The notes beneath the pieces were generated by a model. That model ran no database searches and was not told the origin of the DNA. It saw only the letters and a program-made list of their open reading frames with translations. Of a DNA stretch of 64,000 bases, positions 24,381-42,300 are shown piece by piece. Source of the stretch: Mortierella sp. BCC40632 (lineage: Eukaryota; Mortierellomycota; Mortierellomycetes; Mortierellales; Mortierellaceae). The translations under genes were made by a program, and so were the position numbers. The stretch spans positions 951,001-1,015,000 of the forward strand of contig WAEK01000002.1 of assembly GCA_011634665.1 (NCBI GenBank). The letters run 5' to 3'. Each line of letters starts with the position of its first letter. The stretch's first letter is position 1.

Positions 24381-25358
24381 GATGGGGTCGTTCACTTCCT
24401 TGCAATGTCTTTGACTGGTGACTATTTGCCGAAAAGTTGAGGGAGAGTATGAATGGTATTGTTTTTTTTAGACACGACAATTGGAAAGAAAAAAAATGAA
24501 CGGGAACTGGACGCAAAAGAGTTCTGTGGAAAGAGAAGAAATAGATGTATAGAAAGAGAAAGAGAGGAGAACGAAAAAGAGAGAGAAAAGAAGAACAAAA
24601 AGGGCACAAGGAAAATGTGAATGATTGGGCTTGCCCCACACCCCTGCGCTTGGATCCAGTGATCACTTTTTTTTTACTGTCTCTTGAGTGAAAGTGTGGT
24701 AACGCAGGTTTACGAAGACTCAAGGATAAGGTAGCACAACCCTTCTTGCACTCGCACGGTTACCCAATAGGACCTTTCGCGAATTCTCATTCACAGGACT
24801 GGCTTCGTCTTTTCGTCCGGATGTTGCGCAATTTCTCCTACCTTCGATGACCCTCTTCTATCAATGCTGAGCCACTGAGCTCTGCTCCACCAAAAACTCG
24901 GCGAGTTGTCTTGGTTCATTGTAGCTATCGAGGCTGTGAAATTTCTGCAAATGGTAAGGTGGACTCGGAGGTTATGGAGTAATAAAGATATCAGGGGATC
25001 CCTGCTGTTAGGTCTCGCGACGGTCTAGCTAGATGGGTGATATCAAGGCTAAAAAAAGAAGATTGTATATTCATAGTTTTAAAGTCGACTGTCTACAACA
25101 ACCTGTGGACCCTGCTTAGGAGGACAAGAAGGACGGATCACAAGCTGTCGTTCAAAGGCCGACTCAAGTTCAGGCTAGGACAAGCGTGCGAGAGAGCAAG
25201 AATGAGAGGGGGGGAGAGAGGAGAGGAGAGGAGAGGAGAGGAGGCCCATATCCATATCTCTCTCTCTCTCGTACATACTTTCTTCCTCTGGATTCAATGG
25301 GTCTTGGCATCGCTATTTTTTTTTTTTTTTTTTTTTTTCCATAGCGAACCCTTCTGTA
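24381..25358. other. Intergenic, no gene recognised
   Basis: This holds the 5' flank of the cystinosin gene and then sequence without convincing coding content. An AGGAG/GAGA repeat is at about 25208-25275 and a T-run at about 25316-25338. The 3' border of the Fanzor region begins here. Confidence 0.5.
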
Positions 25359-26656
25359 TCACTAATGAAGAAAAATGAGAAATGTCCATATTAGAGCCAT
25401 CACGTGTGTTCATTTGACCAATCAAAAAAGAAGAAGAAAGAAAAAAAAAGAGAGAACTTACAAGTACGCCTCGATCTGCGAGGGGCTCTCCTGGAATCCG
25501 CCTGGATGAGGAAGAGCTTGAAAGTGGTTCCAGTGTCTGACTGGTGTTTTTGGTGGTGGGATTGACTCCCAAGGGTCTCAGTTGCCAGCTGAATGGTTTT
25601 AAGGTGGCACGCTCTGGAGAGAGGAGGTTGGATGCCCCGGCGATCGCAATTGCTACCGCCGAGTGAGTATCTCGGGGCCGGATTGAGTATCCACACTTGA
25701 GAGACGGGCACTTGGGATTCACGCACTCTACAGCGCCATGCACCTTCACCGTCTTTACCTCGCCTCGGATAACTCGTCGAGCACAGGCTAACCTGACTTC
25801 TTGGAAGCAAAAAATGCATGTTTTCGATGTTCGGTGCTCACTGGTAATGCCGACAGTGCAGTGCTGTCGATGCTCCTTTCTCATCTTTCCACCTCCTCGT
25901 CGGGCGTGGCCTTTAATGCGGCTGCCTACTCCAGTTCCTGCATCTCCGATGAGCATGACTTTGAAATACTTCTTTTCTTCCTTGGGGCACTGCAAAATGT
26001 GTCTAAAACGTCCGCCCGAGTTTCGAGGAATATGGTGGGCTAAGCATGAAGAGCACCAGCCGTCTCCGTAAGCTACTGTACCTACGACTAGAACGTAAAA
26101 AGGAAAAGATTTGAGCCCCATGTTTTTTCCATACATAGGCAAGGCAATATGCTCATTTTCATGGTACTTACGTGCTCCATCATTCTTCACATCGTGTTGT
26201 CTGACATGCTCTCGGACATGTGTGCGTTCTGCTGCACCGAGTTTTGCCCATGCCTTAGCTGTCCTGAGGCGCTGATTCCGTAAATCTCGCTGCCGCACGG
26301 TAGAACTTCGAATGCCTTCAAGTCATCCTCAACGGATCGATGGAAGCAACGGGCAGAGTCTATGGCTCCCAAACTGTTGGCTGTCTTTAGGACGTTTTGC
26401 TTATCAGACAGCTGTTCGATAGCCTCGCGTGTGCTATTATTTTCAGGACGTCTGAGTCGACGATTTCGCTTTCTGGTCGACCTTTCGGAATGCGAAATGT
26501 CGTTAATCTGTTTCGCAGTGATTCTGTGGGACCGTGGCAACCGGAGTTTCTCCAACTCCATCTGCTGAGTGAGCGACCGTTTTGTGGCAGTTGCAACAAC
26601 AGAAGAGCCTGTTTGGGTTGGCGACTCTGTGGAGGGCACGTCAGTATCGACTTGAT
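25359..26656 (-). pseudogene. Fanzor copy B, C-terminal half (RuvC and zinc finger), decayed
   Basis: The frame starts at a splice acceptor (TTGATTAG before 26656) with no start codon of its own, so it is the 3' part of a split gene. A basic helical linker (RRPENNSTREAIEQLSDKQN) leads to WCSSCLAHHI and a later Cys, then VMLIGDAGTGVGSRIKGHARR. Next comes SEHRTSKTCIFCF, a CVNPKC pair and RPRDTHSAVAIAIAG. This is the order of RuvC and zinc-finger motifs at the C-terminus of TnpB/Fanzor nucleases. In the final motif the usual D-x-N-x-A has His in place of Asn. A one-base frameshift lies near 26298 (AFEVLP to RQRDLRNQ). The last intron seems to end at 25362 with an immediate TGA. Confidence 0.65.
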
Positions 26657-26685
26657 CTAATCAAAGAATTTTAATGGTGATTAAA

Positions 26686-29600
26686 CTAGCCTAGTTTGCC
26701 CTGCGTACCGCAGGGATCCCCCATTGCATCTCTAACTGATGTTGGAGGCATAGTAAGTTGAGCTATCTCCTGTGAATATGAACAGGTATGTTTGGTGGGA
26801 CGGATTGTCCTTGTAAATGGCTCCAACGTTCTCCTCTCTGCCGAGAGTAGAGTCGACCCTCCTGCTATCGCAATACAAACAGCTGCGTTCACATCCCGGG
26901 ACTTGATCGTATGTCCTCGCTGGACTGACCCGCACTGGCTGTTCGTACACTCCATTGCTCCATTCACCTGAACCATCTTCTCCTTGCCATCCACAATCCG
27001 ACGCGACCGTGCCTTCCTCAATTGACCAAAACACTCGGCACACGTCTGGCTCGTCCTGAATTCATCAGTAAGTCCAACCACTCCGTACCGCATATGCTGC
27101 TCTCTCATCTTTCCTCCTCCCCGTCTAGCGTGCCCTCCAATTCTGCTTCCTACTCCCGTTCCTCCCGACCCCACCAGCATCACTGGGATGAGTGATGGAC
27201 CATTCTTGCGACACCGAGCCAGGTGCTGGTAGTTACCCCAGGTACACGCTATATGGTGCCGTTGGCAACCACCACACCATCCATCTGACGGGGATACCTC
27301 TAGAACATTAAAAGAAGAAGACTCAGTAAAAAATAAAAAATAAAAAAAAAAAAGGACATTTTGTTCTGCTCAACTGTACCTGATGGGCTCTCTGACCCAA
27401 ACGTTTCCAATGCGTGATTCTTCACATACTCCCTCTCTGCTGCCGCCACCTTCCCCCACACCCTTCTTGTGCGAAGTCGCTGGTTGTGCAGATCCTTCAA
27501 CCTTGCCTTGGATTTCTCAAATCCCTTCAATGCTTTGCGTGACTCTCGATGCAGCTCATGCGCCCTGTCAATCTCCTCCATCGTCTGTGCTGTCTTCAAA
27601 ACTTGTTCCTTGTCTGAGAGCTTCTCCAGTGCTTCGCGTACATCACTATTCTCCGGTCTCTTAAGTCGCATCTCTCGCCTCTTGGCTACCCGTCGCATCC
27701 CTGAAGCTTCATTGAGCTGAGGTGCCGTGATCTTGAATGGACGACTCTGGGGTGTCCATTGTTCTCTAGAGGCAGTTGCCTCTCCTGATGACTCCTCATC
27801 CGGAGGTGGTGGCCATGGCTCAGGATTAGAGCTCCCAAAGGTTTCCTCCGCATCCTCTTCTGTGCCTATTCATCATTAAAAAAAGCTATTAGATGCGCTG
27901 AGCTTGACAGATGACCGACATTATTCCTTACATCTTGCCCATTCAACTTACCATAAAAGTACAGCATATCGGTTGATATGCGTCTTGATCTCGCCCAGGG
28001 TCTGTGCACATGTTACACTCATCGTTCGAATCCCTGGATCTGTCCCTGCAAAGACAATTCTGTCCTCTGGCAACTTGGAAATATCGAGGCGCCTCGTTGA
28101 ATCCTCGACTGTAAAATCCTTCACAGTAGGTGTGGTGTACTCCACCGCCTTTGAGCCATCCTTGCTCTTTGGGGTCTTTGCTGTAACTACCCTGCGGAGC
28201 CCATTCCAGTAACTCCTCTCTTTCCGCAGGCGTCGCAACTGACTCTCCTGTGGCTGTACAGTTGCTCGAAGAGCTCGCACCTTTCTCCTTGCTTCTTGAA
28301 GAACGCGATATGTCTTTTTTTGCTCACTCCCTCTTCCGTCCTCTACACTCTGAATATTGCCCTCATTCGTGTCTACGCCCCCGATGCCTTCCTTGTTTGC
28401 CTTCTCATTCTCTTTTCTGACTGCTGTGCGGTGGTTCTTGGCTGTCAGGCTTTGATCCGTCTCGAGCACCTTGAGTTCCTTTCGGCCTCGCTTGATTCTA
28501 CTCTCAAGGTCTTTGATATTGCTCTCTACTCTCTTGATCTCTTCAGCAATTGTTTCCACTTCCATCTTTTGATACTCTATCTCTTTGGTCCAGTCCATAG
28601 TATCAGTCCTGACCTTGGCCTTGACCCGCCTCTCGTAGTGGCTGAACAACGGGCGACCTCCACGCTCGGCTCCCTGTGGAATCACTTCACCCAAAATCCG
28701 GACTGTGTACCTATCGACGAACATCATTCTGTCCGCAAATCTGAGGCCATGCTTGCGACACAGCCTTTGAACTTTCTCCAAGTCGAAGAATGCCCCAAAG
28801 ACTGCGTCCTTGTGATGTGGGACTCTTTCTCCGGCTATTAGAGGAGTGCCTTCAGAGTTCTTGATATCAAAGTGGCCTGGCGTCTTGGCACACAACACCT
28901 CGTATAACCCCTTCGCTCCAAGAATCAATGCATGACTGGAAGAAGGTGATATCTGCGGTGACAAAAGCCGAGTGTGCTGAGGATACCCAGCCGCTCTTTG
29001 AATTGCGTTGGCAATGATGGCCATAGGTGCAAGCAAAGTAGCGTGGGCCAAGGGCGCCCTCGTTCCACTTTTTGGGGTCTCGTCTCTCGGCTAACTCGAC
29101 GTTTTGCAACATAGGGTCGAAGTGCGTTGCCAGCTTGGCTTGGCTACAACACTGCATTGCTCCTCGGTGATATCCATTCCGCCGTGTGCTGACTTTCTGA
29201 CCCAGTTGTTGTCGATTTCCTTCTCGATTCGGGGTGACTCTAGGAGCATACGAAGAAGTCTCCTCAAAGACAATATGATCGCTCTTGTTGGCTCTTTAGC
29301 GAGAGAATCCCCTAATTCGTTTTCTAGTTCTTCCTCCATCTCATCGAGATCCCAGTCGTCGAAATCAGACCCTTCGAGATTGTCAGAGTCCTGATCTTTG
29401 ACAGTTCTCCTTTGGGTCACACCATTGTCCTTGTTGTTCACCTCAACCACCGGCTCTTTGACAAAATCTTCCTCCGGTTCTTTAATGTCCCAATCGTCAA
29501 AATCAATCCCTTCAAGGTCGTCCGTATTCAGGTCTTCGACGGCTCTCCTTAGGGCTTGAATACTGGATTCACCGCCCGCCTCGACTGTCGGCTCTTTGAC

Positions 29601-31874
29601 AGGGTCACCCTCCAGTTGGCTAAAATCCCAGTCATCAAAATTGACCCCTCCGAAATTGTCCGTATCCAGATGTTCGAGTCGGACATCCAGTGGTTCAAAA
29701 CATTCCGCCCCAGCGGTTTGGGCTGTGTACTTGTGAGCCAGGATGTATTCAATCCTGTGCAGGACCGATTGAATCCGTTGCCCATCTCCGGTTGGGTCTT
29801 TGTCAAGAGCACGGTTGAGATCATCGCAGAGCACCAGGATTGTCCGTTTCCATCTACTCTTGCCTACAGTTGCATTCTTGGGATGACTTTTCTTTCTCGT
29901 GGCCTGACGACTTGAGTTTTTTCTCTCTGCTTTCGCTCTCTCTCTGGAGCCAGATGGAGCCGCAATAGAAGCAAGAGAGTGTGATCGAGAAGCTTGTCAT
30001 ACATCTGGCCTCCCCAAAGGTTCTCGATGTTTGTAGCCATTTGCTTCAAGTGCTCACTAACAGTACTTGAACGGCCTCCAACATCTACTGAAAACTTGCT
30101 TTTGCCCGATGCGAGGTTACCGACCACACTGCTCCAGACCTGTCGCCTGGCTTTGTTCGCTGCGTTAACTCCTTGAGCTCCGAAGAACCAAGAATACATG
30201 AACAGGAGAAAGCTATACGACATTAGAGTTGTCGTGTCGCTCTTTCTCTCGGCTTCCAGGTGCTCTGGCAAAAGGTCAGGAAGGGCCGCAACTGGGAGCA
30301 AGGACAGGACAGTCTTGTCCCGAAACTCGAATCCTGCCGGAAAGACCGACTGGATGTCAAAGGCCATCTTGGTAGATGGATTGATGTAGTGAGTCCCTGA
30401 TGCGAGCTAAAAAAAAGAAAAAAAGAGGTGATATTCATTTGTCAGTAATAGAAAAAAAATAATAAAATAAAATAAAATAAAAATGCAGAGCCATTACCTC
30501 ATGAACCGCCTTCGTAGCCAGCACCGAGATTTCCTCACAAACCACCGTCATAGCCTCTTGACTTTTCTCTAGGAGAATTCGGATTCTCTCTTTGTCCTCT
30601 GTACAAAGATCAGGCCGAAGAACTTGCTGAAGTGTGGCTGTGCAGGATCGGAGCTGTCTCTGATCGGGTCCAGTCTCTTCCTCCATCTCGTAATCACCAT
30701 CGCTGCTGCCACCATCATCGCCATCACCGTTTCTTCCGCTTCCTCTCCTACTACTACTACCTCTTCCTCCTCCTCCACTTGTTCTAGCTGCCGCATCGAC
30801 TTTATCGTTCGAGTCGGCGCGACCCTTCCCTTTAGACAGCTTTTTGGTCTTGGCCTCTTCTTCTGCCTCCCATAGTGACTGAAAGTTTGCTTCGAGGTAG
30901 CTGTTCCATTGGTTGACGGTGCCGTCCTTCCCCAATTTTTGTCCATAGTAGTCCTAGAAAGATCTCGGGCGGCCACGTTGGAGGCTCTTATGGTATCGAA
31001 GGCGGACTTTTGATGCATAGAGGAAGTCTCTTTTGTTGCAATAAGAGACTGGTAGGCTTCCCCTTTGTCTTTTGCCCTTTAAGATGCTTCCTTTAATGCG
31101 GTTTTTGTTATGTAGTCATGCCTGCACAGTATCAAGTGGAGAAGCCATTAGATACACCATGCTTTATGAGGCTATTTCTGCTATCGAGTACTTGAAAAGT
31201 ACATGTTTAAACATTTACCTTGCTTTTTTGAAGGCTTCCTGGATATCAGCGTCCGCAGGATCGTCTAACTTCCGTTTTTAAAACCGCTATAGGTTCTTGG
31301 GCTGTGCGGTAGACCGCCGGGGAGTAGCGGCTATGGTATGGCTGGGCTGGAGGTTCTCCTGGGGTATGTTGTTGGACCGAGTAGTTCTTGGATGGCACCA
31401 ATGCCAAACACTCCCTCGTCCCAAGGTAGGAGTCAACGTGTTGAAGAATACCGATTGACATTGTCGAGTCTTCGCTCCTGAAGACCTTTGTCTTTTTTCG
31501 GGTGGAGAAGACAAAAATGTCAACGTGTAGCTCTGATGACAATAGTCGGAAATGCAGGTTGCTGTGGGGTGGGATGTCAACTGATGTGTCTCCAATGGTA
31601 AGAGTGAATAGAGGGTTTCGAGATGCAGTGTTATTGAGAAGACTTTGCACGATCGATGTTGTCGCTGGTACCCGAGATGTTTCAAGTGGAGCCATGTCGA
31701 CGACGATGCCCTGTCGGCAGAGTGTCTCCATCGTACTTGCCCTGTTTTCCAATTGACAGTGGTCAAGGGACAGAGTACTCTCCAGTCTGGGTGCAAGAGC
31801 AGGGTCATGCCTCTCTAGCATGCTCCTCCAGACTCTCAAGAGTCCTGCGCTGTGATCTCTTTGCAAAAGAATAA
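26686..31874 (-). pseudogene. Fanzor-type RuvC nuclease gene, copy A, near-complete but with lesions
   Basis: Exon blocks in order are about 31874-31205, 31110-30510, 30410-29052 (read on into 27948), 27867-27325 and 27262-26686. The N-terminal two thirds match no family I know. RuvC-I is FAGTDPGIRTMSVT (about 28030-28060). A charged coiled linker precedes it. The C-terminus has WCGGCQRHH, VMLVGSGGTGVGSRIGGHARR, DEFRTSQTCAECF with the acidic residue (about 27035-27070), CTNSQC and SRDVNAAVCIAIAGG (about 26880-26910). These are the RuvC and zinc-finger motifs of TnpB/Fanzor, RNA-guided DNA nucleases of mobile elements. Lesions: TAG at 29091 behind a 5-bp tandem duplication (29135-29144), an apparent frameshift near 31270, and a GTAAGT donor at 27947 whose phase does not fit the next exon. 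Unrecognised introns could remove some of these. Confidence 0.65.
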
Positions 31875-32492
31875 TTCAGTGTTGACTCCTAAAGAGCAAA
31901 ACGATGTAGTAAATATTTAGCAAGGTGTCAAGTTGAACTGTTGGGGGTCCTTTTTGTGCTTTCTTTATTCTTTGCCCTACCATGATAAAAAGAGGAAGAG
32001 AGAGCGTGTATGTGTGTAGTAGTGTATGTGTATAGTGTGTAGTGTGTAGTGTGGATTGTGGATTGTGGATTGTGGATTGTGGAGTGTGGAGTGTGTGTGT
32101 GCAAGGAAAGAAAAAGGTCAAGTTCAAGCAGAGCTCTCTTCTCTCTCTTCTCTCATTGTTGAATCCTCTAGTGCGCTGCACTTTGCATCTTCTCACTTTT
32201 AATTTGTCGGTGCCAGAATGGCGCTGGGAAAATATGAATCATTCTTTTTTCCTCACGCTTCAGGGGACCATGCGCAGTGCACGGTCTTCAAACTGACATA
32301 ATCATGAACTGTATGGAGAGAGAGAAAGAGAAGAGGAGAGAGAGAGAGAGAGCTTTTGAACACACATTCCTCAGACTTAAGCTGTTCGTTACGTAGTAGC
32401 TCTATTTTTGCATAGCTGTGGCACGCAGGACCAAGCACTTGTATTCAAACTCCTGCCCTTGCTGAATTGAATATTTCTCAAATTGACCTCTT

Positions 32493-32909
32493 TTCTAAAT
32501 GGTCCTTTTTTCAAATCCTACTTTTTCCTCGAAATAGTCCTTTTTTTCAAATCCTACTTTTTCCTCGAAATAGTCCTTTTTTTCAAATCCTATTTTTTTC
32601 CTCGAAATAGTCCTTTTTTTCAAATCCCTACTTTTTCGAAATAGTCCTTTTTCTAAATAGTCCTTTTTTCAAATCCTACTTTTTTCTAAATAGTCCTTTT
32701 TCAAATCCTACTTTTTCTAAATAGTCCTTTTTCAAATCCTACTTTTTTCGATATAGTCTTTTTTTTCAAATACTACTTTTTCTAAATAGTCCTTTTTCAA
32801 ATCCTATTTTTTCGAAATAGTCCTTTTTCAAATCCTACTTTTTCGATATAGTCCTTTTTTCAAATACTTTTTTTCTAAATAGTCCTTTTTTCTGAAATAG
32901 TTTTTTTTT
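32493..32909. repeat. Minisatellite, about 28-31 bp unit, about 14 copies
   Basis: The unit is close to TAGTCCTTTTTCAAATCC followed by TACTTTTTCGAAA, with variable T-run length. It is AT-rich and non-coding. Copies differ mainly by T-run length and by CTCGAAA, TCTAAA or CGATAT variants. Confidence 0.85.
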
Positions 32910-33245
32910 GGGTCTGTCCGACCAAAGTGGATGAAATGAAGAGAGAGAGAGAGAGAGAGAGAGAATAGGGATGGACACCGTTTTTCAGAAACCTACTTTT
33001 TTTTTTATTTTTTTTTTTTTTCAAACACCAAGTGTTTATTGATTAGCTTTTGCATCGACCCATTAGGGCCACCAATGTCTCAAGTTGCTTGTTGCAATGG
33101 GAAGGAGTGAGGAGAAAGACTGCTGCCAAAAAGGGTCAATAGGAAGAGGTGACCAGGTGTCTCAACATGTGCCCTTTTGAGTCTGTGTTTCACCAATTGG
33201 ATTAGGTACTTTTCTTGAATCGCCTTCACCCCAGTACCTTGATTG

Positions 33246-33557
33246 CTAGCTCCTCTTTTTATTCATGGCACTCTTGAAGTTCCATCTCAGGTTTTTCATG
33301 TTTCGGCTTAGTGAGTGTCGCTGGTCGTCCTGGTCCGAGTGGCAGTCGCTAATGGCTTTGAATCGGCCTTGATCGTTCGCCCTGCTAGAGTCGTACCACC
33401 ACACCAGTGCCCGAGCAGACGCCTCTACTGCCTGCTTTCTTGCCTGAGGGTCATTGATATCAATTCCATGAAAGACACTGTACCTGTCATGTCCTACTAC
33501 TGTACATAGTCGAGAAAGCATGCCGACGCATAGAGAAACAGTGCGAAGCGAGGGCAT
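33246..33557 (-). CDS. Small open frame of unknown function within the Fanzor insert
   Basis: This is a 103-residue frame of mixed composition, with ARALVWWYDSSRANDQGRF and a basic end (MKNLRWNFKSAMNKKRS). The upstream TTACTCAG could be a splice acceptor, so it may be a last exon. It resembles neither the start of Fanzor copy B nor any family I know. It could be cargo, an extra exon of copy A or chance. Confidence 0.25.
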   Translation of the reverse strand: MPSLRTVSLCVGMLSRLCTVVGHDRYSVFHGIDINDPQARKQAVEASARALVWWYDSSRANDQGRFKAISDCHSDQDDQRHSLSRNMKNLRWNFKSAMNKKRS

Positions 33558-33869
33558 GGGATCCTCAAGTTGGTTCTGAGTAATCGATTAGAGATGTCTG
33601 AGAGAACCCGACTACTCGGTGAAAGGAGCCCCTCTCGGGTCTGCGATACCTTTTTGGGATGTATAAAGATTAAAAAGGTCTACCCCACATGGAGTGAGAA
33701 AATGATTACGATTGCAGCCGCTATTACAAATGTTCAGTCACCACCACCACCACCACCACTATTCACATTGCAATTGCAAGGTTTGCTAAAGTACCCTTCA
33801 GGATGGAAAAGAATAGAAGAAAGTTTCTTATTCCGGTTAATGGCCAATGACCGGTGCTCCGATCTTATA

Positions 33870-33970
33870 CCTTCTCACAGCACTCCGATCTTATGCCTTC
33901 TCATAGCGCCTTCTCATAGCGCCTTCTCATAGCGCCTTCTCATAGCACTCCGATCGTATGCCTTCTCGTA
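33870..33970. repeat. Short tandem repeat, GCCTTCTCATA units
   Basis: Imperfect units of CCTTCTCATAGC are followed in alternation by ACTCCGATC or GCCTTCTCATAGC, about seven copies. It is non-coding and lies between the minisatellite and the copy B intron start. Confidence 0.7.
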
Positions 33971-34195
33971 GCACGCACGTAGCACATTACACGCAGGACA
34001 CCTACGGCCGAATAAAGAAGGGCATGTTGTAGCAGACAGCAGAACAGGTAGCAAAGAAGGGCAGGTAACAGCAGAGCAAACCAGAAAAGGAAAAGGGGGA
34101 TTTTCTATCAGGTGACGCGAAACTCAGATATTTTTTTAGTATTTGTTAAATATTTCTTTTTCCTCCAAAAAAAAAAAAAAAAAAAAAAAAAACGT

Positions 34196-37100
34196 ACCAA
34201 AAAGCAAGCTGAATCTGTTCAAATGGACTTGGATTTCGCTCAGTGTCTGAGGAACCGTTTCAGACATCGTGACAATTCCATAGTCTGTTCCTGCAAAGAC
34301 AATTTGATCGCTCGGCAATTGCTCGATAGTTAATCTCTCAGTGGAGTCCTCAACAGCGAATCTATTCGGTGTTAGAACTGTGTCTGCCGCGAACTCGTCT
34401 CCCCCCCGGTGCTCTTGGAGGCTACCTGGCTGACAGCAAGGACTTTGTTCCAGTAGTACAGCTCCTGTCGTAATCGTCGAACCTCAGCCTCTTTTTCCAT
34501 GACAGTAGACCTTAGGCGCCTGACAGATTTTTTATATGTTCGGAGTGCATGGTACCATCGCCCCTCTTCCATAAGGTGGCGCTTCTTTTCGCCGTTCGTG
34601 AACCGATTGACCAAGTCCTGATTTATTTTTCTCTTTGACTGCCAGTTCATCCCTGAGTTGTCGTACAGTTAACTCAAGTTGGTGGAGCTGCTGAGACACC
34701 TCTGTGCGTTGGCTTTCGGCCCGATCCTTGGTCCATTGGGTTCGATCCAGCTCTTCATTCCAGTTGATCTGGCCTGTAGGTTTTTTTTTTGCTTTCGCCT
34801 TTCTTCATACTTGCTCCGGCGACGATATCCTGAGTGATCCTGAGTGTACTCTTTTTCTTTGCCTAGGATACGGACACAATGGGGATCGACAAACACCAGC
34901 CTGTTCGAAAAATCATTCGAGTTAGTCTAATGGCTCCGAGGATACAATGGTAACAATAGAACAAGATGTACTCACCTGTCTGTGAAATTCAGGCCATGTC
35001 TATCGCAAATCTGAGCGATCTTGGGAAGATCAAAGAACGCTTCAAAGATTGCTCGCTTGTTCTCTGGGGGCATAGTTGCTTGAGCAGTACTAGTCAACGG
35101 GCGTCCTCTAGCATCGTTGACGTCGAAACGTCCCTCTTCATTCGTGCAGAATACCTCATACAACTCTGCTGGACCGATGTGAAGCGCCTGGAGTGACGAG
35201 GGGGACACCTCCGGGCAGATCAGTCGAGCAAAGTGAGAATATCCCGTTGCTCTCAGTACAGAGTTTACGATACACATCAAGGGTGCCCCCTAACTGTAGG
35301 ATGAGCTAGAGGCGGTGCAGTTCCGCCACGGTCAAGTGGACGCCTCTTGGGAACGTATGGTCTGAGAACTTCAGCCAAGACAGCCACCACAATGCACTCT
35401 TTGTCCGTTAATGGAGAGCCGTGGAATGCCATTCTCTTGACATAGTTCGGGTTGATCCTCTCCTGAATAAAAGGTGACTCGAGGAGCGTCTTCAACATGG
35501 CCTGCAGTGCACGTAGACGTGCTCTTGTAGCCTCTTGCCCAATCACTTTTCTCAACTTCATTTTCGTCATCCATCATATCCTCCAGGTCAGCAACGTCCA
35601 AATTGGGATTCTTGGATAGAAGAATGTCCAGCGATGTGTCGGGTGGATCGCTCTGCAGGGTATCAAATGACACATTAATGAATGCATTCGTCAGTGCATC
35701 TAGTGGTGGGTCCAGTGAAACACCCGTGTGCATGCTTGGCCCACCAACGTTTGTTGAGGCAGAGGCTTGTACAGGTGGATCTGGCACGTTGCTGGATGAA
35801 GACGGGCCTGGGACACCACCAGAAGATGGAGGTATTGGAGGTGTATTACTCGGACCAGGTATCGGTTTCCTCTTGTAGAGCTCATACAGTTTTTTAATGA
35901 GCACCATCGTACGGATAGGCTTGTTTTTGTCTTCCGAATCGGCAATCTCGTCCATGATCCTTGAGACAGTCGTTCTCCAGAGAGACTTTGACAGTCTTGG
36001 TTCGACAGTATTCGAATGTAGTTCTGCTTTTTGCTCTCTTTCTCTCAAAAATGCTTCGGCTCGATCCTTGTTCCGTTTCTCTCGCATAGGAGCAAGGTGT
36101 AGACGTAGCAAGACGCGAAGGAGATAATCCAGCACCTTGTTGTAGGCGCCTCCGTTCCAAAGATTTTCGATTGCGGTCGCATACTGACCAAGGTGGGCCA
36201 GAATGGTCCTTGACATGTTTCCAGGTGCTTTTGGTACTTGATCCGTGTCGATGATCCTTACAGCTCTTTGCCAGAGCGGATGATTTGCGCTCCCACGAGC
36301 CGATACTTTCTGGCTGGCCGAGATCAGTCGTGCGTAAGCAAACTGGAGATATTCCTTGGACAGTAGTGTCGAAAGGTCATCGCGCTGGTTCATGGGCTCC
36401 TCGATATGCTGTTGTAGAAGTTTCGGTATTGGCGCAACGTTAAGAGTCTGTGGCACGTCATTTCGAATTTGGAAACCGCCTGGGAGCACACGCTGGATGT
36501 CGAAGCCATCCGATTCGATGGGTCCGAGAGAATCATCAAAGAGGTTCCCACTAGCCATCTACGGCAGCAAAGTAGATCGTGGATCTGGTGTTAGTTTGCT
36601 GTAGATTTAACCTGTTGTTCGCTCTCAAATATTTTCAGTACAATGGATTACTTACGACGTGGGTTGTCTTCAGTGCAAGGATCGATATCTCTTCCATAAC
36701 CTTGGTGAGATCCGTTTGCTGCTCCATTAAAAGGTTGCAAAGGTACTCGTACTGGTCCTGGAGCTCGGGGCGCAAAATTTGGCGAAAAGTGGCTGTACAG
36801 GTACGCCATTCGTCTTGTGATGAATTTTCTTGATTGGCACTAGTTTGGCTCCGCTGGCTACTGCTGGGACTTCCGGAGTCGACTGTGCAGAGCTCCCAGG
36901 CTCCTTCAAAGTTTTGATTAACAACATCCCTCCACACCTCTAAAGTATTGCAGTCGCCTAGCGATGCCTTAGCCTTGGCTGATGAGATGTTGACATTGTA
37001 TTCTTGGCAAATTGCTTCGGTGGTCTTGGAGAGTGTGTTTGGCGGAAGCCTGGTCCATCTTAGCATCCGTTCCTTGATTGTTGTAGGGGCTTTGTTGACA

Positions 37101-37966
37101 CGGCTCAAATGCTCCTTTGCCTTTTTGGAGTTCTTGCGAGCCACGATCTTGAGGTACTCGTCCTTTACCTGTTCATTTAGCGTCTCGAGGCTAGTCAAGC
37201 AAAAAAAAAATAAAGATAAAAATAAAAAAAAAAATCAGTATCCTGCGGATGGCTGATAGATGGTTGCAATATCGATCAAATCAACTCTTGGCTGTACTCA
37301 CCATGCCTGCATGAACAAAGCCTGACAAGTGTCCGAATCAAGGTCGGGAATGCTGTGCGAAACTGCCCGTTTTCGTTTGCCAATTCGGAACGCTGCTGGT
37401 CTTGTCGACATAGGAGTTCTTGGAGACGTCTGAATAGGGCCCAAAGGCGTCGGAACGATCGAGCGGGTGGATGGAGTAATCACAACATATTCACCACAAC
37501 CCAAGAATGAGTCCTTGATATGGAACAGTGCGATGGTTGCTTTTGGATTGTCGACTGTGAACCGTTTGGGCCGCGCGCGAGAAGAGAAGAGAAAAATATC
37601 AATGCTCAACTATGTAGAAACCAGTCTGAGGAGTAATCTCCCTGTAAGGAAGAATACTGCCTCGACATCGTCTCCGTCCTTGGTAATACTGATCTTGATC
37701 GGTCCTTTCGTTGCGCCATTGAGACTTCGCGCAATATAGTTAGCCAAGAAATGAGAGGAGCCTTTTGTGACAACAAGCCCAAACTCTGACAAGGTGCTTA
37801 GAGCTAGTCGGGCATCCTCTCTTCCAGTGGCCTGTTGCAAGTCCAGATGGCCAAATGCTGCAGAGGCGCGCTGTAGCAGCAGACCACCATCATCGGCAGG
37901 CATCTTTTCTGATGCTAGCTCCTCCATTAGGCCAGGAGGGACCACGTACTTTAGTGAGTGTGCCAT
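34196..37966 (-). pseudogene. Fanzor copy B, N-terminal half with RuvC-I, decayed
   Basis: Exons 37302-37966, 36656-37190 and 36558-35571 join in phase; later exon blocks reach RuvC-I, FAGTDYGIVTM (about 34265-34300), and a donor GTACG at about 34195. Each block aligns to copy A in the same order: the LSIDIFLFSSRARPK region, TCTATFRQILRPEL, GFDIQRVLPGGFQIR, ATAIENLWNGGAYNKVLDYLL, and ELYEVFCTNEEGRFDV. Lesions are an in-frame TAG at 37610 where copy A has GAG, a frameshift near 35550, another near 35285, and frameshifts near 34790 (in an A-run) and 34650. It has one intron (about 34905-34975) that copy A lacks. The C-terminal nuclease half lies 7.5 kb downstream, beyond copy A. Confidence 0.65.
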
Positions 37967-38479
37967 GGGGGTAGGAAGGAAAAGGAAGGGAATAGTGCGT
38001 CAACGAAGAGGGAGTGTCAGAAAGAACGATAACTCGTAAAAAAAAAAAAAAAGGAAAGAAAAGGAAAGAAAAAGAAAAAAGAAATCTGCCTTAAATGCTT
38101 TGAAAAAGAAAGCCTTGAAATATCGGCAGCCAACATTTATCAAAAACCACACACAAACAAAAAGAGAGAAAAAAACAGACATGGACGGCTTTGGCATTGC
38201 AGGAGATCCGAGATGCCTTTGACAGTGACAATGAAACGGATAACGAAGCAAAAGGATCCTAGGTCCGAGAGCAAAAGACTATGTTGAGAACTGCCTTTCC
38301 ATCAATGACAAGAATGACAAGCAGGCTGGCTCATATGGCTAGGAAGAGTGGATCCAGTCTCTGTTCATCGAGTTATATCATAACACAATGTGCTGGATAA
38401 TCTGGCAGGCTAGTCTTGGACCCCAACAGTCATCTATGACAGCAACGACGAACAGCCCGACCCAACCAGAGAGATGGTG

Positions 38480-39306
38480 GAGTGAATAGTGGATGTTGTC
38501 CAAGTTCAGTCGGTTACTCTCTCAGAGGAGTCTCTTATAGAATCGGCATGGCAGGCTTCAAGAACAAACCCCTTCGAAATAGCCAGAAACAGGGTATCTC
38601 CACCATTGGAGTTGCAACGTCAAACATTTCCTTGGGTCGAGACGGCATTTGGAAGACCAGGGAAGATTGTATTCCATCAATGGAATGAAGAGTGTACCAA
38701 CCAAATGCTGGAGAAAGATGAAAACGAACTTATCGAGTCTGATCGACACACTCCTTTTACATCGAGCTCATCATCCGCGCAAGCTGACGCAGGTGTGGAT
38801 CCTCCTTCGGATTCATCTGACGCGCTCTTTTCAGACGAAGATGTGGCAAAGAAGGTATTCTTGAACTTCTTGTGAGGTTTAGAAGGATTATCCTTCAAGA
38901 TGCCGCAATACGGCTCCAGCTTAACGAGACAAACACAGTCCTTCGGCAGAATGATATCTTTCAATCGCCAGCGTTCCTGAGGTTCAAAGAGGGAGTGATC
39001 GCTAGCCTGGACAGACCAGAGTCGGATCCATGGGATCAGTACCAGCAACTCACTCCGTGTTTAGTCGAGTCAATCAAAGATCTCAAGGGCACGGTGTCAG
39101 TTGTTGTGGTGAAAATCGACCGACTTGAACGCACACAGGAGAATGTGTATCAACAAATCCAGTACTTGGCTGAAGAACAGCGCCATCCTCATCCCCAATT
39201 TCAACAGATCGCTCCCCCAACAGCAAGTATTCGGCAGCAGCAGTTGTTGTTGCAATTGCAGTACATGCAACACGTTGCACCAAGCACAAATGCAACAACA
39301 ACATAA
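38480..39306 (+). pseudogene. Crypton-like ORF remnant
   Basis: Two overlapping frames (38489-38875, then 38872-39306) read as one protein with a frame change. The block RFRRIILQDAAIRLQL, then DIFQSPAFLRFKEGVIASL, then PCLVESIKDLKGTV and a coiled segment, resembles by memory the region after the tyrosine recombinase (Ndc10-like) in fungal Crypton elements. A Gln-rich stretch follows. The upstream frame has an acidic Ser/Asp-rich patch. No catalytic Arg-His-Arg-Tyr set is visible, so the identity is tentative. Confidence 0.35.
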
Positions 39307-42300
39307 CATGTTCAACATGTTGTTGCAGACGATGCAAACGCCCACTTCACCGCAGCATGTAGCGCCTCTGCCGCAAGCGGAGCGCGTACCAATACCACCT
39401 CTCTCTCAGTGGCGTCATCAACACCAACAGCAGTCCCCCGGCGCAGTCCCAGAAACAACCCCAAGGTCTCCAGGCACTTCAATCTTCCTCTGCTCCTGCA
39501 AAGCCGGGACACCATCGCAAAGAAATGAAATTCATACTTTACGATGGGACAAAGAAGTAACAAATGAAATAAAACAAAAGGCTCAAGGACCACCTGGGCC
39601 TGCACCCAGCACGAAGCTATTGATCCAACCTCCATCCTGGCGTTCCGGCCTCTCGTTAGGCTGTCGATGGAATGGGTCATCACCCTCGTCCTCGTACCTG
39701 ACTCGATTTTTTTTTTTCGTCGCAATTCAATGGCATCTTCTGCTCACCTCAGACCAATTCAGCTTCTATACCTTTTCCCTCCATTGGTCCCTCTACTACC
39801 TCCCTCATGTAGCCCATTTCAATGAGTGGGAATTTACAGGTATCCAAGTAAAAAAAAAAGTTGGTGTCTCCTTCCTATTTTGTTAACTGAGAGAGGATTG
39901 GCCATCTCACTGGTAAGGTGTCTGGTCGAATTTTCCAGTTAGCGATACAATTACTGTACACTTTATGTTCGCGTCTTACTCCAAACACGCACAAGGATTT
40001 CTACCCATCTCGTCTCATTTCTTCCTCCGACCCCTTGGATTTTATACTACGATTTCATTGTCTGTTGGACCAACTCCCGAGCCACAGGGTAATAGGATGT
40101 CCAGCATGTGCAGTGGACTTTGGAGGGTCTATCCATCGTCAAAGCAAAGCATCGTCAACTGAGACTACTTGGGTGAGTGTTGTCCAGATCCGCTTCCATC
40201 CTAAGAGGCCTATGAGTTGAGCCTGATTACGAAAAAACCTCAGAGCAGACCCTTCTCTCCTGTTTATCCTCGGACGGCACTATCACCACTGTCTCCTCAA
40301 ACTTGGTCTATGCTATGCTCCTCAATATATCTATCTCTTTAGAAATAGCATCGTCAAAGATTATTCCAAGAAGTACCCCGGGTTTAGAACTATCTGCCAG
40401 TAGAATATCGGTTCCTTGAAGAGTCTACTGCCAAGAAACACTCTGTTACCGAGAGCTTTTGAAGCAAGGAATCCATCACTGATACAAAAAGGATAGTACG
40501 TCTGTGACAGCCTTACTTCACGGGAACCCTCTATACCCGCTCTAGCAGAGGGTTTATTATGACATGGCGACAAAGACCAAGATTTTAATTGGCCGTGATA
40601 GTCAGACTACCAGATGTATGGAGCATGGCCATGCCCAAGGAAAGGTGGGCAAAAAATGTCCGATATGCTCCTCCTCAACACCTCCTTTCTTCCTGCAATA
40701 TCTCCTGCGATACCATTTCGTTCGCCTCGTACAAGGTGGTTATTTTGTCCGCTCATATACCAACGGTACCATGTGCGATAGCGATGCCGACGGCCATAAA
40801 AGCATGACAGTTTTATTCTCTCCTTTCGGCCTGATTGCCGTTGGGAATCTCAAGAGAAATGAAAGGAGGCCAAGAAGTGAATATGTCATGGATTCGGCAC
40901 GAGCCGAATGGCCAATGATATTCAGAATGTTGAACTTGGTATGAAAACCAGAGGTAGATTTTATGTATTCGATTAAATCGCCCGACTCGACAAAGTGTAT
41001 CCGCAAACTCTCCTATGCGATTCCGAACAGAGTGCTTGTCGGTCAAACGGGGTAAAGATGTTTGTAGGAGAGGTTAGTGAAGTGTGCAGTGAAATAAGAT
41101 GGGAACCTGTCCCCGGATCACGGTTCTGGAGTCACAGTCAAGTAAAGAATTCTCTCAGCCTATCGACTTTCCCCCGGTCTGTGCTAGGTGGACTTTGATA
41201 CTTAGTGGTCTTGGTAGTATTGAATCCAAGCCCATGCTTCTAGCAAAACGTTGCTGTAGGTGTAACAGCAAGAACCCATAGGGAAAAAAATGAGCTTGCC
41301 ACTGCTAAAGTCGAACCTCACAGAGAAGAACTTTGTCCAAGTTAAAGTTGTTCTTTTACAAAGTGATTTGAGTGTCTGGACTCTTTTCACAAAAGAATTC
41401 ATGCTCGGCTCATGAAGCCCTTCCCTGAATTCTGCAAAAAGGGCACGCCTCTTTACAGCACCTCCTTGCTGATAAACAGGATCGTGCAGATAAATTGGAC
41501 AATAATCCAGGTAACGGTACCTTCCTCTCCAGAGCCTGGTTCACTTTTTTGTCCACGCAAAATATGTGAATCGTTTGCTGACGTGATTGACCAATGGCGA
41601 GTTCCACAGAGAGGAGTCTTTCTTCCTACTTGCCTATACCCGTTTGACCAGTTTGGTATCTAGTAAGGTCGCAGAATAGACCACGTTCCGTGAAATCCGT
41701 ATCGTTGATCCAGTATTGAAGGCAGACGCGCGGACGCCTTTTGCGAAGTAGCGCCCAATCGCTCAATCCAGGTGTTTCGATAGCTCAGTACCAAGGGATC
41801 TGCATTGACTAAAGCAAGAACCACATTACTGGGTTTGGCGATGCTCCTGGAAGTGTCTCGCTGTCTACCCTGAGGACATGATAGCGATAGAGTCACCAAG
41901 ATGATTCTAAAGACTGTGGTTCCCCTAAGTTGTCATGTCTTTTGAGACAAGATGACAGCCGTTGTGATCTTAGTGGTCATCTATCCAGACGGAGAGTGCT
42001 GTCCCCTTCAGAAGTAAAGAAAGAATATTTCTTTAGCTTCTGCGGTAGAGGTCTTATGGTGACGAACTGGCTCCTCGCTCCTTACTTAAAGAGCCTGTTG
42101 GACTCGACTGAAAGGAAAAAAAGAGTAGGCACAGGAGGCTTTTGCTGAGCATGTTATGCAAGTCGAGGGGAGGAGGGTGAGGGACTGGGCATACTAGGAC
42201 AGGTCTGCAGGTGTCTATGCATAGTTCTCTCAATAGCCATCGTGCTTAAGGCAACATGTCCCCCCACATCCCCCCCTGCCTGCGCCTTTGGCAACTTCGA

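Follow-up and report, generated by a model that had tools for sequence, protein, structure and literature searches.

A 64,000-nt stretch of contig WAEK01000002.1 of Mortierella sp. BCC40632 (the window) carries one Fanzor-like gene inside an intron of another. The inner gene belongs to an element, A, that is Helitron-type by its ends, while the outer gene, B, is part of a mobile unit with ends of its own. Nests of this kind are present at six places in the 49.9-Mb genome, the single genome analysed: the window and five others, one of them truncated where its contig ends. Inner copies resemble each other far more closely than outer copies do, a pattern that suggests transfer of the inner element from site to site. 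In our preferred reading, to which we give a probability of about 0.72, a Helitron, A, entered an intron of B once, B spread the resulting nest, and A was later overwritten or copied by ectopic gene conversion. Loci are named by genome contig: C2 is the window's copy, and C9, C1, C6, C12 and C18 are the other nests.

Element A lies in a phase-1 intron of gene B

All parts of the nest lie on the minus strand, with A in the same orientation as B. The B exons, at 37966-34198 and 26656-25359, border the 7,465-bp element A (34150-26686). Exon 1 (37298-37966) begins with the ATG at 37966 and contains one in-frame stop in the window, being open in C6; exon 2 spans 36650-37180 (bounds approximate); exon 3 (34972-36558) has frame breaks in the window and is open over 527 amino acids (aa) in C9 and 523 aa in C6; and exon 4 (34198-34905, 5′ bound approximate) encodes RuvC-I (FAGTDYG). 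The RuvC-I exon stops at 34198 and is followed by GT, and exon 5 opens at 26656 behind an AG (TTGATTAG). The host intron survives as a 47-nt 5′ remnant (34151-34197, GTACG and a T run) and a 29-nt 3′ remnant (26657-26685, TTTAATC...TTGATTAG), which starts TTTAATCACCATTAAAATTC directly right of the CTAG of A. Phase is 1 on both sides. Element A accounts for 7,465 nt of this 7,541-nt intron, leaving 76 nt for the intron without it. Exon borders, phase and the ends of A all bear out an earlier note on this DNA, which had placed A within an intron of B in the same orientation. The right end of A that it gave, 26686, also stood; the inserted unit is larger than the 31874-26686 it had assigned to this copy and starts at 34150.

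Downstream of A, the outer C-half of B (25462-26656) encodes a zinc finger and RuvC-III (PRDTHSAV). A small last intron (GTAAGT...TTAG, by eye) leads to the TGA stop at 25361-25359, which falls within the right terminal sequence of B. That the two outer parts are one gene is supported by P0018, a predicted 802-aa protein of Lunasporangiospora selenospora and an uninterrupted B orthologue, which matches both of them. P0018 runs across the A site (...NRFALLF/DQVDTD..., the slash marking the site) and ends in GEPLADRGVL, the C-terminus that had been proposed for B. Its best blocks reach 88-92% with the N part of B (copies C1, C9 and C6) and 81-95% with the C part (five copies); the more broken N parts of C2, C12 and C18 give blocks of 62-90%, and A only 36 and 47%. 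Among the 13 rows of a C-half tree, B joined P0018 at 100/99 and A grouped with its own copies, although the program warned of long branches (P0017, P0021) and that two other groups had been pulled together. The outer C-half thus groups with P0018 and not with A, and the placement nearer to A that would have spoken for separate genes did not appear. Affiliation of the N half was judged by identity to P0018, the tree covering the C-half. Where A sits in the nest, the sequence of a more distant uninterrupted relative of B (C7) amounts to only some 110 bp.

The left end of B lies at 39935-39958 (minus strand; TACAGTAATTGTATCGCTAACTGG); the TGTATCGCTAA in it matches the right end, at 25354-25369 (TTCATTAGTGATACAG), imperfectly and in inverted orientation. 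DNA matching the left end breaks off between 39957 and 39966 at C6, C1, C5, C9, C14, C7, C4 and C8, and before the left end of B at C18, C28 and C2:2595k. The right end recurs at C9, C6, C12 and C1 (with A as its last base in C1) next to unlike flanks. With ends at 39958 and 25354 that recur at other loci in differing surroundings, B is a mobile unit as well as a single gene. The two ends share an 11-bp asymmetric inverted match, TGTATCRCTAA; flanking bases and hairpins, judged by eye, give no clear fit to Helitron2. Shortened B elements at C8:1008k, C2:2594k, C14:976k and C4:443k keep the left-end sequence and the 3′ Fanzor C-half, as if the 3′ end, perhaps a guide RNA, were needed for spread.

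Element A has Helitron-type ends

Element A (26686-34150) reads TT(C)TAACAAATAC at its 5′ end and closes with the hairpin CCCTGCG-GTA-CGCAGGG, 13 nt before the 3′ end, and CTAGGCTAG. Copies elsewhere lose their match to the window at about 34151 on the left and about 26685 on the right. Its Fanzor-like gene (26686-31980, several exons, start uncertain) encodes RuvC-I (FAGTDPG), the zinc finger DEFRTSQTC and SRDVNAAV, and its stop codon TAG (26688-26686) is part of the terminal CTAG of the Helitron. The closest named protein relatives come from Lunasporangiospora, Modicella, Actinomortierella and Mortierella.

Free left ends read A/TCTAACAAATAC, i.e. A/TC, in 13 of 14 cases (the slash marks the element's edge). 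The fourteenth is at C17 (5001-5560), where two left ends are arranged head to head, separated by short tandem repeats of the tip sequence. Among 14 right ends sampled from 35 free ones, the hairpin is followed by CTAG/T in 11 (C12:1429k being read by eye), by CCAG/T in one and by CTAC/A in two, which thus have A and not T next. Many free copies share one flanking context; in the five distinct contexts with both sides seen, as in the nest, A is inserted between A and T without target duplication. The nested copies differ at the 5′ tip, which is TT and not TC in all six nests. A 5′-TC, a 3′ hairpin, CTRR-type ends and A^T insertion are listed as Helitron1 features by Bao and Jurka (2013, PMC3627910), and by its ends, hairpin and A^T site A is a Helitron1-type element. 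None of the 23 genome-wide matches to PF14214 (Helitron Rep) falls in the nest; A would therefore be non-autonomous and might rely on helpers at other loci.

Units of CAAATCCTACTTTTT and CTAAATAGTCCTTTTT alternate in a tandem repeat at 32474-32909, upstream of the A gene; the length of this repeat seems to vary between copies. Six A copies (C44:30741-38179, C12, C1, C3, C19 and C35) have one common flanking repeat on both sides. The two halves of this flank lie about 1.4 kb apart at ten further places; at C11, the one that was read, the intervening DNA is not A.

Inner and outer parts of the nest differ in age

The order of N part of B, A and C part of B is the same at C2, C9, C1, C6 and C12, and C18 has the N part and A up to the contig end. 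The left end of C18 falls slightly short of the others, and C12 starts at a contig end, its left end lying beyond. Right of A, the first 19 nt of the intron do not vary among the five nests that extend that far.

Synonymous differences were counted in the six pairs formed by C2, C9, C1 and C12. They amount to 2.2-4.6% in B and 0.3-0.8% in A, a 4.3- to 13.5-fold excess in B (p from 7e-4 to 3e-9). The last 214 nt of A were omitted from this count because they hold a block with two haplotypes, where 10 of 165 columns separate C2 and C1 from C6, C9 and C12. The ten single-nucleotide polymorphisms (SNPs) that divide these copies fall within 17 bp (26826-26842), a block that looks like a small conversion patch. 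With the 3′ block included, synonymous differences in A rise from 2.5 to 9 for C2/C9 and from 4.5 to 11 for C1/C9, B still showing 47 and 46.5.

Two lineages of B can be told apart. Sites splitting C2, C1 and C6 from C9 and C12 number 49 in 3,113 clean columns left of 35,100, and 2 in 5,737 within A (p 3e-20); columns near gaps and the tandem repeat (32460-33060) were left aside. The window's copy changes lineage beside A: left of 35,100 it sides with C9 at none of the 49 sites (a lineage-1 body), whereas between 35100 and 34151 it sides with C9 against C1 and C6 (lineage 2) at 8 of 8 informative sites, the switch lying near 35.1 kb (p 6e-10). Inside A there are 21 columns at which C2 goes with C9, mostly changes in C1 where C6 could not be read. 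Since B is older in divergence than A and the lineage switch lies next to A, the B copies had already diverged when A was copied or homogenised among them.

Apart from the 5′ tip, no fixed difference separates nested from free A in the two parts compared. The TT tip is found in 6/6 nests and in 0/13 readable free tips. Near 33,950, five of the six nests have C, and the window copy has T, as do three free copies. The common tip, together with this C, suggests that the nest arose once, presumably by a single insertion event.

Coding state of A and B

Between nests, the ratio of nonsynonymous to synonymous differences (pN/pS) in B is 0.28-0.49 for the N half (11 pairs) and 0.16-0.43 for the C half (10 pairs), indicating that B was coding during much of its divergence. 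Its frames are now broken, by indels or in-frame stops, in at least one exon block of each of the six nests, relative to the frames of C6 or C9; C1 and C9 have two breaks each. The outer halves in the window, earlier described as decayed, indeed carry one in-frame stop and six frame-breaking indels over five exon blocks (versus C6 and C9). Singletons in the N half number 31 nonsynonymous to 20 synonymous, compared with 27 to 32 at shared sites; in the C half they number 12 to 20.

For A, the state of the frame was judged by open-frame lengths. All seven exon blocks are open in the window. Nine other copies were read over 3-7 blocks each, and in eight of them one or more blocks fall below 70% of the length in the window; the ninth, C25, has no short block and lacks one motif. 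Sequencing error could account for part of the indels counted here.

Relation of A and B to the Fanzor family

The Fanzor1 motif of Bao and Jurka (2013, PMC3627910) is D-X(125,275)-[TS][TS]-X-X-C4 zinc finger-X(5,50)-RD. Measured on two relatives, the spacing from D to [TS][TS] is 267 residues in P0017 and 276, one above the limit, in P0018, in both cases followed by C4 and RD; A and B in the window retain RTS, the four cysteines and RD. The E and D of two RuvC motifs are invariant in 15/15 aligned copies. The PF07282 zinc ribbon scores 14.7 bits against A, below its cut-off of 26.3, and matches 5 of 15 family members at E<1; of its 48 genome-wide matches at E 0.001 (42 above the cut-off), none lies in this nest. 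A query with the outer C-half gave 150 scored genome matches, some of them pieces of one copy, and the genome's load of Fanzor-like sequence is heavy.

A C-terminal profile searched against the PDB had SpuFz1 of Spizellomyces punctatus (8gkh; Saito et al. 2023, PMC10432273) as its sole hit up to E 1, a weak one (E 0.29). Its LDEYKTS and zinc finger align with TDEYRTS here, although similarity of sequence is very weak. A PDB search with the full-length single sequence of P0017 gave two unrelated chance hits and no Fanzor. The structure model of P0018 was poor (mean predicted local distance difference test score 54.8, C-half of low confidence), and Foldseek with this model found no match at E 0.001, those listed being mostly coiled coils. 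Rfam at its gathering score gave nothing in 25000-40000, and NCBIfam nothing useful.

Insertion sites of A

At C6:733k, a more diverged B copy without A (92% aa identity over 89 residues) has the two intron parts joined (733296-733463), with GGCTAG, the last six bases of A, exactly at the joint; the A-free intron lies at 733286-733395. This is apparently the remnant of a lost A.

The earlier note had suggested that the nesting would bear on target choice. In that form this was not supported: the ends of A and its A^T sites are Helitron-like, and a general preference for Fanzor targets is rejected by the absence of Fanzor sequence from all 14 sampled free right flanks. Among the 35 free right ends, the one at C10:388954 does adjoin another Fanzor gene. 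There, and at C17:222670 and C5:2529953, 5′-truncated 3′ ends of A (0.45-0.78 kb) stand directly before other Fanzor C-halves in the same orientation; these three junctions are of two kinds (C17 and C10 alike) and were picked up through the adjacency itself.

Discussion

We propose that a non-autonomous Helitron, A, with a Fanzor-like cargo would have inserted once, between an A and a T, in the 76-nt phase-1 intron of B. This second Fanzor-like gene lies in a transposable element of its own, whose ends would then have carried A to at least six loci. After B had diverged, ectopic gene conversion, the route we infer, would have overwritten the interior of A or copied it between loci again and again, which is the proposed reason why A is young everywhere and B is not. 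Either of two histories could apply: A may have preceded the split of the B lineages and been homogenised afterwards, or the second lineage may have received its copy at a later time. The GGCTAG scar at C6:733k favours the first, the flank switch together with selection on B the second; either history requires that dispersed copies underwent gene conversion. In the usual TnpB/Fanzor scheme, the guide is read from DNA just outside the right end of the element, and a nested A would thus aim at the intron of B. If a guide RNA extends beyond the right end of A into that intron, the Fanzor of A may make the breaks from which conversion starts.

Several observations weigh against this reading. The interior of A was readable in four of the six nests (C2, C9, C1 and, in part, C12). 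An uninterrupted B, as sought by the earlier note, exists in another species (P0018), but three joined-flank searches found no clean pre-insertion site intact in this genome, C6:733k with its six bases of A being the best candidate. Right of A the nest is a mosaic, with two lineage sites and six sites at which C2 goes with C9, and no clean tract edge. Element A also varies among nests, in the 17-bp block of ten SNPs near its 3′ end, in changes private to C1 and in left-end deletions in C12 and C18. Finally, free and nested A are equally young, so that an old insertion with subsequent homogenisation and a burst of A with late transfer fit equally well.

We consider it somewhat unlikely that the B lineages split while free of A and that A then moved from a nest into the same intron site of other B copies, through a break in the empty intron and repair from an A-bearing copy, perhaps with A's own omega RNA as guide. 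This would account for an A that is 4- to 13-fold younger than B and for the lineage-2 left flank (8/8) on the lineage-1 body (0/49) of the window's copy, as co-conversion would leave it; one guide would fit all five nests with the 19 identical intron nucleotides right of A, and purifying selection on both halves is easiest to explain if B was uninterrupted. However, the apparent scar at C6:733k suggests an earlier presence of A, no close B copy free of A was found, and the base before the left end of A is A, with no longer constant motif seen.

It is unlikely that A predates the split of the B lineages and was spliced out of a working B as part of a 7.5-kb intron, while being homogenised with free copies. 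The TT tip common to all six nests, the scar at C6:733k, a pN/pS of 0.28-0.33 between B lineages in the N half and the singletons of the C half (12 nonsynonymous versus 20 synonymous) are consistent with this. Against it, C6 has lost the GT donor, singletons in the N half (31:20) are less constrained than shared sites (27:32), and frames are now broken in all six B copies. An intron of 7.5 kb is, moreover, very large for such a fungus.

More doubtful is the idea that A is an RNA-guided homing element, which would take its guide from the intron of B, cut copies free of A, be copied into them with its flanks and so ruin a rival family; ordinary ectopic conversion would leave the same pattern. 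An assembly artefact, with repeats of A collapsed or polished toward one sequence, is improbable: many 1-nt indels between copies do suggest sequencing error in repeats, but copy-specific indels and two distinct 3′ haplotypes persist among A copies, and flanks differ at every locus. That the outer C-half is a separate 5′-truncated Fanzor copy behind A by chance is very improbable: such arrays are known here (C17:222670, C10:388954, C5:2529953), but both outer halves match one orthologous gene, P0018, and the breakpoint is an exact intron of consistent phase, with equal order at six loci.

Several known systems resemble the nest in part. Elements within elements, an intronic position and co-conversion of flanks are familiar from nested transposable elements and homing introns; here, in contrast, both partners are Fanzor-like and the nest multiplied with the ends of the outer element. 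Fanzor genes in Helitrons are already known: Bao and Jurka (2013, PMC3627910) describe CRe-1, 2 and 3 of Chlamydomonas, with captured Fanzor1 genes. Like A, these are non-autonomous rolling-circle elements with a multi-exon Fanzor gene and many 5′-truncated copies with intact 3′ ends; unlike A, with its Helitron1-type ends and a stop codon within the terminal CTAG, they are Helitron2-type. The word 'nested' does not occur in the main text of that paper. A preprint by Mears et al. (2025, PMC11870625) reports that, in plasmids, TnpB serves IS200/605 elements as a gene drive. Were the insertion site recorded by the guide and empty sites cut, A would likewise spread into empty B introns; that system is bacterial and experimental, whereas the nest here is a pattern only. 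In the literature as covered by titles and the beginnings of abstracts, most subscription papers lying outside, we found no Fanzor-in-Fanzor nest, no homing of a Fanzor by gene conversion and no Helitron-borne Fanzor in Mortierella.

What bears on Fanzor biology here is that A was subsequently copied or homogenised among the copies of B. For the role that Fanzor nucleases play in their eukaryotic carrier elements, dispersed, like nests with a measurable age gap between inner and outer parts are a natural test bed. If cutting by Fanzor drives copying into empty sites, the pattern described here is expected, and candidate guide, target and donor are all present in the locus. If A does home in this way, one Fanzor would spread through, and finally ruin, a rival Fanzor family.

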